64,000 nucleotides of DNA from assembly GCF_003345255.1 (NCBI RefSeq), contig NZ_CP029331.1:1736001-1800000 (forward strand). Reading direction: 5' to 3'. This document shows, one piece after another, positions 35,871 through 39,831 of the stretch. The position numbers were made by a program, and so were the translations under genes. A model generated the notes under the pieces. It ran no database searches. It saw nothing but the letters and a program-made list of their open reading frames with translations, and was not told the DNA's origin. The stretch's first letter is position 1. Each line of letters starts with the position of its first letter. This DNA is from Pseudothauera hydrothermalis (lineage in GTDB: Bacteria; Pseudomonadota; Gammaproteobacteria; Burkholderiales; Rhodocyclaceae).

Positions 35871-38177
35871 ATGCTGCCTCCGATCGAACACCGCATCGCC
35901 GCCGAACTCGGCGTCCAACCCCGCCAAGTCCAGGCCGCCGTCGCCTTGCTGGATGACGGTGCGACCGTGCCCTTCATCGCCCGTTACCGCAAAGAAGCGA
36001 CCGGCGGCCTGGACGACACCCAGTTGCGCACACTGGAAGAGCGCCTGAGCTATCTGCGGGAACTGGAAGAGCGTCGCGCTACGGTGCTTGCTTCGATTGC
36101 CGAACAAGGCAAGCTCAGCGACACGCTGCGCGCCGAGATCGAAAACGCCGACACCAAACAGCGCCTGGAAGATCTGTACCTACCGTACAAACCCAAGCGC
36201 CGCACCAAGGCGCAGATCGCCCGCGAAGCCGGCATTGGCCCACTGGCCGAGGCACTGCTGGCCGACCCCACGCTGAACCCGGAAGTCGAGGCCGCTGCCT
36301 ACCTCAATGCCGAAGCTGGCTTTCCCGATACCAAAAGCGTGCTCGATGGCGCCCGCCAAATCCTGATCGAGCACTTTGCCGAAGACGCCGAACTGCTGGG
36401 CAGCTTGCGCAGCTTGCTGGCCGAAGAGGGGGTAGTCGTCTCCCAAGTGGTTGCCGGCAAAGAGCAAGAAGGCGCAAAGTTTCGTGACTGGTTCGATTTC
36501 CGCGAGCCGATCGGCAAAATCCCCTCACACCGTGCGCTGGCCCTGCTGCGCGGGCGCAACGAAGGCGTGCTGCGGCTGGCGCTCGAACTGCCGCACGACC
36601 CGCAAGCCGGTCCGCATCCGTGCGAGCGGCGCATTGCCGCGCGCTTTCAGATTCGCGACGCCGGGCGCGCAGCCGACCGTTGGCTGATGGATACCGTGCG
36701 CTGGGCCTGGACCGTGAAAATTTCTCTGCACCTGGAACTGGAATTGATGAACCAGTTACGCGAGCGGGCCGAAGCAGAGGCCATAGAGGTTTTTGCGCGC
36801 AACCTCAAAGACCTGCTGCTTGCCGCCCCGGCCGGCGCACGCCCGACCATGGGCCTGGACCCTGGCATTCGCACCGGCGTCAAAGTGGCCGTGGTCGATG
36901 GCACCGGCAAACTGCTCGATACCGCCACGGTGCATCCGTTCGAACCGCGCCGCGATCTCGAAGGCGCGCTGGCCACCTTGGCGGCGCTGGCCAGTCGCCA
37001 TGGGGTGGAATTGGTGGCCATCGGCAACGGCACCGCTTCGCGCGAAACCGATGCGCTGGTGGCCGAGCTGCTGCGCCGCCACCCGCAATTGCGTCTGACC
37101 AAGGTCATGGTCTCGGAAGCCGGCGCTTCGGTGTACTCCGCCTCGGAACTGGCCGCGCGCGAGTTCCCGGATGTCGACGTCTCGCTGCGCGGTGCGATCT
37201 CCATTGCCCGCCGGCTACAAGACCCGCTGGCCGAGTTGGTGAAGATCGACCCCAAGTCGATCGGCGTCGGTCAGTACCAGCATGACGTCAACCAATCCCG
37301 CCTGGCCCGCAGCCTGGATGCGGTAGTCGAAGACTGCGTCAACGCCGTCGGTGTGGACGTCAATACCGCCTCTGCCCCGCTACTGGCACGCATCTCCGGC
37401 CTGAACGCGACGCTTGCCGCCAATATCGTCGCGCATCGCAACACTCATGGCCCTTTCCGCACCCGCGAAGCCCTCAAAGCCGTGCCCCGGCTGGGCCCCA
37501 AAACCTTCGAGCAGGCCGCCGGTTTTCTGCGCATTGCCGCAGGAGACAACCCGCTGGACGCCTCCGCGGTGCACCCGGAAGCTTACCCGGTGGTCGAACG
37601 CATCCTGGCCCGCGTGCAGAAAAGCGTGCGCGAACTCATGGGCCATAGCGCCTTTCTGAAAAGCCTGAACCCGGCCGCATTCACCGACGAACGCTTTGGC
37701 CTGCCCACCGTGCAGGACATTCTCAGCGAACTGGAAAAACCCGGCCGCGACCCGCGCCCGGAGTTTCGCACCGCCACCTTCCGCGAAGGTGTGGACACCA
37801 TCGAGGATCTGGCGCCCGGCATGGTGCTCGAAGGGGTGGTCACCAATGTGACCAATTTTGGCGCCTTCGTGGATATCGGCGTGCACCAGGACGGCCTGGT
37901 GCATGTGTCAGCGCTCGCCGACCGCTTTGTCAAAGACCCGCATAATGTGGTCAAGGCGGGTCAGGTGGTCAAAGTCAAGGTGCTGGAAGTCGATCTGGCG
38001 CGTCGGCGCATCGCGCTCAGCATGCGCTCGAGCGATGAACCCGGGCCCCGGCCGCAGGCCGAACGCCAAGCCCCCCGTAGCGCGCGCACACCGGATGCAG
38101 CCTTGCGCCGGGACACGCGCCAAGCGCCTGCCAACAACGCGCTGGCAGCCGCGTTCGCACGCGCCAAACTGAAGTAA
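35871..38177 (+). CDS. tex: RNA-binding transcriptional accessory protein Tex
   Basis: 768 residues from ATG 35871; the 21 codons upstream in frame are not family-like. The N-terminal region begins [20 protein letters not shown]; the YqgF-like nuclease fold follows ([17 protein letters not shown]), then helix-hairpin-helix repeats ([35 protein letters not shown]) and an S1 RNA-binding domain near 640-715 ([29 protein letters not shown]). The basic tail after residue 725 is variable. Tex binds RNA and RNA polymerase and is widely conserved. It lies 71 bp after the mutarotase gene and 18 bp before the ArsC-like gene. Confidence 0.95.
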
Positions 38178-38195: not shown

Positions 38196-38564
38196 ATGAA
38201 ACCGGTCATTTACGGCATCAAGCACTGCAACAGCATGAAAAAGGCTTTCGCCTGGCTCGACGAGCACGGCATCGCCTATGATTTTCACGACTATAAAAAG
38301 GCCGGCATCGCCCACGCCAAAGTGCTCGCCTGGTCCCAGGCGGTGGGCTGGCGCACCTTGCTCAACACCCGCGGCACCACTTGGCGCAAACTCAGCCCCC
38401 AAGAGCAGGCCATCGAAACCGAAGACGCGGCGGTGCAGAAAATGGTCGAACAGCCCAGTCTGATCAAACGTCCGGTGGTGGAGACCGCCGACGGCCAACT
38501 GCTGGTGGGTTTCGATCCGCACGCTTTTGCACGCACATTCAAACCCGAGGAATGCGCCCGATGA
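38196..38564 (+). CDS. ArsC/Spx-family thioredoxin-fold protein (YffB-like)
   Basis: 122 residues. A thioredoxin-type fold with a lone cysteine in the position of arsenate reductase's active site ([13 protein letters not shown], Cys11), and the region [12 protein letters not shown] followed by SLIKRPVV, both characteristic of the Spx/ArsC family. Homologues called YffB are often annotated as putative reductases and do not necessarily reduce arsenate; no ars gene is nearby. The stop overlaps the next start by 4 nt (ATGA), so it is coupled to hslO, itself a redox-chaperone homologue. Confidence 0.88.
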
Positions 38565-39418
38565 ACCCCCCAAAGAGCTTCGTACAACGCTTCCTGCTGG
38601 AAAACCTGGATATTCGTGGCGCAGTGGTGCGCCTGACCGATGTCTGGCAAGCGCTGCGGCAAGGGCGCGACTATCCGCCCGCAGTCGCCGCCCTGCTCGG
38701 TGAGCTGAGCGCGGTGTCCGCACTGATCGCCGGCAATCTCAAGCAACCCGGCCGACTGACCTTCCAGATCCAGGGCCGCGGGCCGGTGGGCCTGCTGGTG
38801 GTCGATTGCAATCAAGCGCTCAATCTACGTGGCTACGCCCGGGTGGACGCGCCGACCAACGGCCGACGCCTGACCGACCTGGTCGGCGACGGCCACCTGC
38901 AACTCACACTCGAGGTCGACGGCCTGGACCAGCCCTACCAAAGCCTGGTGCCACTGACAGGCGAGAATATCGCCCGCAGCTTTGAGCACTATTTGGCGCA
39001 ATCGGAGCAGCAGCCGGCCGGGCTGTGGCTGGCCGGCGACGATCATGCCGTGGCAGCGCTCTTTGTGCAAAAGCTACCGGGCGCCGACGACAAAGACGCC
39101 GACGGCTGGGACCGTGTCCGCCAATTGGCACAAACCGTGCGCGCGGACGAATTGCTTGGCCTAGCACCTGCCGAGCTGCTGGGCCGTCTGTTCGCCGAAG
39201 AGGATGTCCGCCTGTTCGAGCCCCGTGCGGTGATGCATCATTGGCCGCCCGACCGCGACAAGGTCGCCGGCATGTTGCAGGGTCTGGGCGAAGCACAGGT
39301 CCGCGCGATTTTGGACGAACACGGTATCGTCGAAGTCCGCGACGACTTGTCGAACCATTGCTACCGTTTCGACAAGGCCGATATCGACGCCTTGTTCCAT
39401 CCGCCCACTTTGCACTGA
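38561..39418 (+). CDS. hslO: Hsp33-family chaperone lacking the zinc/redox cysteines
   Basis: 285 residues. The N-terminal Hsp33 fold is well kept ([55 protein letters not shown]), and the linker ends [16 protein letters not shown]. The zinc domain should then carry CxC and CxxC motifs. Here the aligned positions are Trp228 and Pro230 ([11 protein letters not shown]) and Asp261 and Ser264 ([11 protein letters not shown]). Only Cys83 and Cys267 remain in the whole protein. The classical oxidation switch therefore cannot operate by zinc release; the protein may be constitutively active, regulated otherwise, or decaying. ATG 38561 overlaps the upstream stop. Confidence 0.93.
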
Positions 39419-39438: not shown

Positions 39439-39831
39439 ATGTACGCCGAACGCAGCCCCAGTGCCGGGATGGTCCGTCTGACCCACCTGATCTACGCCCT
39501 GCATGCCTTCGCGGTATTCTCCGGGGTGATCGGTTCGGCCAGCGTCATCGGCAGCTTCATCGCCAGCATTCCCTCGCTGGCGGCCATCGTGCTCAATTAC
39601 TGGAACCGTGGCGCGGTGCGCAACACCTGGCTGGACAGCCATTTCGACTGGCAGATCCGCACCTTCTGGTACACCCTGGCCTGGGTGGTTTTATCCGTTC
39701 TGCTGGCCGTAACCCTGATTGGCCTGCCCTTTGCGCTGATGGCCCTGGCGGTGGTGTCGCTATGGGTGATCTATCGCGTAGCGCGCGGTTGGTGGCGTTT
39801 GTCCGGCGGCTTACGCATGCCCGCACCTTGA
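39439..39831 (+). CDS. DUF4870-like small inner-membrane protein
   Basis: 130 residues with three membrane segments (about 17-45, 67-88 and 90-112). The NYWNRGAVRNTWLDSHFDWQ stretch between the first and second segments is typical of small conserved membrane proteins of the DUF4870 type in betaproteobacteria. AGAGGAG lies 7 nt before ATG 39439, chosen over the longer open frame that overlaps hslO. It sits 20 bp after hslO and may be cotranscribed. Function unknown. Confidence 0.82.
   Translation: MYAERSPSAGMVRLTHLIYALHAFAVFSGVIGSASVIGSFIASIPSLAAIVLNYWNRGAVRNTWLDSHFDWQIRTFWYTLAWVVLSVLLAVTLIGLPFALMALAVVSLWVIYRVARGWWRLSGGLRMPAP

Follow-up and report, generated by a model that had tools for sequence, protein, structure and literature searches.

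The window, the whole stretch of 64,000 nucleotides from Pseudothauera hydrothermalis that was analysed, encodes a homolog of the chaperone Hsp33 in which all four cysteines of the redox switch are replaced by other residues. Canonical Hsp33 is activated by oxidation of its four zinc-binding cysteines together with zinc loss. The protein described here has lost the switch cysteines, yet selection preserves its gene in an intact state, so that control should be exerted in some other way. The favored explanation, to which we give a probability of about 0.5, is that the protein may act as a thiol-free and zinc-free holdase that is activated by heat or unfolding and not by thiol oxidation.

The hslO gene is an intact, single-copy open reading frame on the forward strand (38561..39418) that codes for 285 amino acids; the coordinates and residues given in the first-pass annotation are exact. 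The protein matches the Hsp33 profile PF01430 with 231 bits (cut-off 21.4 bits, E 1.9e-68), where residues 8-271 cover profile positions 3-273 of 273, and it aligns to Hsp33 from E. coli (PDB 1i7f) with an E value of 1e-40. It scores below the cut-off of the NCBIfam HslO equivalog NF001033 (193 vs 244 bits) and lacks the four-cysteine combination of CxC and CxxC that characterizes redox-regulated HslO. These matches place the protein within the Hsp33 homologous family but outside the redox-switched HslO type. The genome consists of one contig of 3.06 Mb that is rated 100% complete and holds one Hsp33 gene. An additional four-cysteine copy elsewhere in the genome is ruled out, as none is present in this single contig.

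The four zinc cysteines of 1i7f align onto Trp228, Pro230, Asp261, and Ser264. The former CxC motif reads Trp228-Pro229-Pro230 (39242..39250, forward strand) in the alignment column profile, and the former CxxC motif reads Asp261-Asp262-Leu263-Ser264 (39341..39352, forward strand). The loss of all four zinc cysteines, as first claimed, is thus borne out by the alignment to 1i7f and by the column profile of the family, and so is the count of two remaining cysteines in the whole protein, which are Cys83 and Cys267. Cys83 in the N-terminal domain (38807..38809, forward strand) is the only conserved cysteine of the profiled two- and no-cysteine groups, being present in 100% of these sequences and in 49% of four-cysteine Hsp33. 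Hsp33 is encoded in five of six congeneric genomes, including that of the window; the gene is intact and the replacement identical in all five and therefore reflects neither chance nor a sequencing error.

The loss extends well beyond the genus. In the Rhodocyclaceae-like family, 112 loci from about 65 genera were read, the choice of which was partly steered by score, so that percentages describe the sample only. Two switch cysteines are kept in 60 of these loci (always the first and the fourth), one is kept in 5, none in 47, and all four in 0, while the third cysteine position is an aspartate in 112/112. Outside the family, the four-cysteine form was found in 49/53 sampled loci of the same order, 61/64 of the same class, and 12/12 of the same phylum. 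The exceptions comprise two-cysteine sequences from three families of the same order (f15, f21, and f42) and, in other families of the class, L192 and L196 with two cysteines and L197 with three. The single odd protein of the earlier view has the residues described for it, but it does not stand alone; it represents one end of a stepwise series that leads from four cysteines to two and from there to one or none.

Several loci deserve separate mention. L192 and L196 carry an asparagine at the third position and come from genomes of 1.9 and 1.4 Mb, and in L197 (genome G400) a shifted CxxC (NCVGCADR) takes the place of the CxC pattern. The two-cysteine Hsp33 of L124, from the other family f15, is nested among sequences of the family that resemble those of genera g19 and g32 and is not accompanied by yffB, the neighbor of hslO in the window; a horizontal transfer of hslO alone is likely. 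The most extreme form is found in genus g40 (L251 and L256), where the whole translated Hsp33 match contains zero cysteines and position 228 is a valine. Hsp33 is present in 175/200 sampled genomes of the family and gave no match in 25/200. Thirteen of these 25 genomes have a completeness of 90% or more and a contamination of 5% or less, and one of the 25 is a congener (G199, 86% complete).

The order of the losses was read from several trees. In a tree built with the four cysteine columns omitted, the derived sequences form one clade apart from four-cysteine Hsp33 (support 100), and L192 and L196 are sister to the derived clade of the family (support 99). The two-cysteine type therefore reaches beyond one family, and the middle two cysteines were, most simply, lost once and early. 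The loss of the middle pair is ancestral to the family, and the outer two cysteines were lost later and repeatedly. The minimum number of changes in the 113-row tree is at least 7 for the fourth and at least 5 for the first cysteine. The first cysteine is absent only where the fourth is absent as well (both kept in 54, neither in 40, first only in 5, fourth only in 0). Genus g53 by itself contains one-cysteine (CMDA, CPDS) and no-cysteine (FPDS) forms. A single origin of the no-cysteine state was rejected in an earlier, careful tree of 62 rows (AU p 0.00016).

Substitution rates indicate that no-cysteine Hsp33 is under purifying selection. In 12 no-cysteine pairs, dN/dS (Nei-Gojobori) amounts to 0.04-0.28 for the whole gene and 0.07-0.20 for the C-terminal domain, which resembles the values of two-cysteine pairs; because of partial saturation at the synonymous sites of several pairs, the exact ratios are rough. 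Measured against the N-terminal domain, the rate of the C-terminal domain is slightly higher in the no-cysteine group (rate ratio 1.20) than in four-cysteine Hsp33 (1.06), a mild effect that is far from decay. The linker is conserved as much as the N-terminal domain (rate ratio 0.98). It spans residues 167-222 (39059..39226, forward strand), and its profile shows a conserved DGW together with the family motifs TxxxxE (T192-E197) and RL(Y/F) (R209-L210-F211), as named in PMC7423844, which are kept throughout the no-cysteine clade.

The former zinc site has been rebuilt rather than eroded, as illustrated by the comparison of the 29 no-cysteine sequences first profiled with four-cysteine Hsp33 of the order. 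His226, Pro229, Asp261, Asn265, and Tyr268 are invariant in 29/29 no-cysteine proteins, residue 228 is always aromatic (Trp, Phe, or Tyr), and position 264 holds a small residue (Ser, Gly, or Thr). His226 (39236..39238, forward strand) precedes the first cysteine position by two residues, and its place is taken by Phe in 87% of four-cysteine Hsp33. His266 (39356..39358, forward strand) follows the fourth cysteine position by two residues and is present in 28/29 no-cysteine proteins, the sole exception being a Cys in a congener (L013), while the position is highly variable in four-cysteine Hsp33. The entropies in four-cysteine Hsp33 of the order are 1.84, 1.47, and 2.72 bits at positions 229, 265, and 266, respectively, which marks all three as variable there. 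Drift is not expected to give such a pattern of positions that became fixed after the departure of the cysteines. More distant no-cysteine copies (g16, g22, g40, g48, and g61) deviate from the full site pattern, and the aromatic residue at 228 is missing in g16, g40, and g22.

An AF2 model of the protein is Hsp33-like over its full length (TM 0.70 vs 1vzy), with 3m7m and 1vzy as the best matches. The model is weak, with a mean pLDDT of 72 from a three-sequence alignment, and its confidence is low just where the site would have to fold without zinc, as both former zinc knuckles are below 50. A scan of viral contigs, made to gain more sequences, yielded no relatives.

Immediately upstream of hslO, and overlapping its start by 4 bases (ATGA) with the stop codon, lies yffB (38196..38564, forward strand), which encodes a thioredoxin-fold protein of the ArsC/YffB family with 122 amino acids. 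It scores above the cut-offs of NF008107 and TIGR01617 (123.7 vs 121 and 94.8 vs 75.05 bits, respectively) and keeps the catalytic-site Cys11. YffB proteins bind glutathione and have been proposed to be thiol reductases (PMC3169414). The coupling of yffB to hslO, pointed out in the first-pass annotation, is real and occurs in 47/51 loci of the family with sufficient flank, but it has no tie to the loss of the cysteines. The two genes adjoin in 20/22 loci of the main no-cysteine clade, in 1/1 of g23, in 3/4 one-cysteine loci, and in 23/24 two-cysteine loci, as compared to 0/5 two-cysteine and 0/88 four-cysteine loci outside the family. As yffB is found equally beside two-cysteine Hsp33 and is missing beside the no-cysteine copies of g38 and g55, it does not explain the loss. 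By its distribution, the coupling is a dispensable family trait whose origin coincides with or postdates the two-cysteine state. A role of yffB as cause or partner of the cysteine loss is unsupported, given the family-wide adjacency and the exceptions both ways.

Eighteen bases upstream of yffB ends a large open reading frame (35871..38177, forward strand) with a C-terminal S1-like region, which reads as a putative tex and adjoins in most no-cysteine relatives. On the other side, 20 bases downstream of hslO and before minC, a predicted membrane protein of 130 amino acids is encoded (39439..39831, forward strand). Its gene stands beside hslO in 4/4 congeneric loci and in no other no-cysteine locus and no four-cysteine locus checked; the protein has no match in Pfam and NCBIfam. 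Upstream of hslO, no consensus sigma-70 site was found for a promoter of its own, and there is no terminator excess, to which we attach little weight.

The favored mechanism follows from what was kept and what was lost. The linker is conserved and the thiols are gone, which is most simply explained by retention of the second activation step; this favors a holdase activated by heat or unfolding. In such a protein, the switch domain would bind no zinc through thiols, and the site would instead fold by packing of the aromatic residue, the two histidines, and the proline, aspartate, and small residue. Heat or another unfolding stress would subsequently open the linker, which corresponds to the second step of activation in E. 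coli Hsp33, with no disulfide formation. The opened protein would hold unfolding clients and then pass them to DnaK. Hsp33 treated with peroxide (H2O2) still requires unfolding by heat or HOCl (PMC10598452).

The strongest rival, though clearly the less probable, is a protein locked in a reduced-like state that has lost its holdase function or retains it as a minor one and keeps a redox-independent role, e.g., the binding of EF-Tu, which would be unfolded or aggregated for Lon. Reduced E. coli Hsp33 with a folded switch domain has been reported to bind and unfold EF-Tu (PMC8614738), and a C-terminal domain that is selected without a sensor would fit a role that needs this domain folded. However, the EF-Tu role is based on few studies in E. 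coli, and the linker has its function in the holdase cycle and is conserved like the N-terminal domain.

Somewhat less plausible still is a constitutive holdase, in which a loose, zinc-free switch domain would leave the linker unclamped and the protein always client-bound, with expression as the only control. A precedent is given by a single linker-destabilizing mutation that renders E. coli Hsp33 constitutively active (PMC4735815), and the title of 1i7f, the structure of a truncated Hsp33 domain, speaks of constitutive chaperone activity; the low confidence of the AF2 model at both knuckles points the same way. A loose domain, however, should not gain residues that are newly invariant where zinc was once bound, and both the linker and the C-terminal domain are selected.

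We regard it as rather unlikely that a new sensor was built, either as a non-thiol stress sensor that replaced the zinc-thiol switch (His226, Asp261, and His266 with Trp228, responding to metal, HOCl, or pH) or as thiol control through Cys83 and YffB. The near-complete conservation of both histidines and Asp261 would fit the former, as would the lone Cys exception at 266, which is also a metal ligand, and the state of four-cysteine Hsp33, where position 266 is free and position 226 is Phe. The invariance of Cys83 in the profiled derived groups, the adjacency of yffB, and the glutathione binding of YffB proteins would suit the latter. Against this, the proximity of His226, His266, Asp261, and Trp228 is seen in no structure, Cys83 is ancestral given its frequency in four-cysteine Hsp33, the g40 copies have no cysteine at all in the translated match, and g38 and g55 lack the neighboring yffB. 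If a non-thiol sensor were true, an Hsp33 lineage would have swapped its input and kept its output. A relaxed or decaying gene, or a sequence error, is highly improbable: the slightly faster C-terminal domain and the family genomes without detectable Hsp33 would fit decay, but the loss is ancient and common to many genera, dN/dS is low, the gene is intact in every congener that has it, and the former zinc site holds newly invariant residues. Of the three options offered originally, a protein that works differently stands as far as can be read from its sequence, a constitutive one is improbable, and a drifting one is rejected, since the loss is clade-wide and accompanied by purifying selection across the relatives.

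Among chaperones under thiol-redox control, Hsp33 serves as the standard example, and the conservation of its four cysteines has been described as full or absolute (PMC7423844, PMC4735815); one of these two papers reports that the second cysteine is missing in fewer than 10 of 1579 Hsp33 sequences. All sampled members of the family lack two to four of them. The family thereby offers a natural experiment in which chaperone function is separated from the redox switch, with stepwise intermediates that can be measured, and it suggests that oxidation control of the Hsp33 type is dispensable in nature. The annotation of the family genes as redox-regulated Hsp33 probably misstates their mechanism. 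A search of papers available without subscription found no work on Hsp33 of the family and none joining Hsp33 with Azoarcus; the two papers found to join Hsp33, betaproteobacteria, and cysteine appear unrelated to the cysteine loss of the family.

Compared to known systems, the protein is homologous over residues 6-276 to E. coli Hsp33 (HslO; PDB 1i7f, 1hw7, 3m7m), with which it shares the N-terminal domain, the linker motifs, and the outline of the C-terminal domain. It differs from them in the thiol-zinc switch of the E. coli protein, formed by C232, C234, C265, and C268, all four of which are absent here. B. subtilis Hsp33 (1vzy) likewise keeps the CxC and CxxC cysteines, although its fold matches the full-length model. 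According to PMC7423844, Chlamydomonas Hsp33 has lost one conserved cysteine and zinc binding and responds to mild heat or oxidation; it belongs to an unrelated lineage, and one cysteine is lost there as opposed to two to four in the bacterial family. Further related systems are the two-cysteine Hsp33 of other Rhodocyclaceae-like genera (e.g., L002, L003, and L010), which are of the same lineage, share the aspartate at the third position, and mostly have yffB upstream. In contrast to the protein of the window, they retain the first and the fourth cysteine, and pairing between these two would still be possible.
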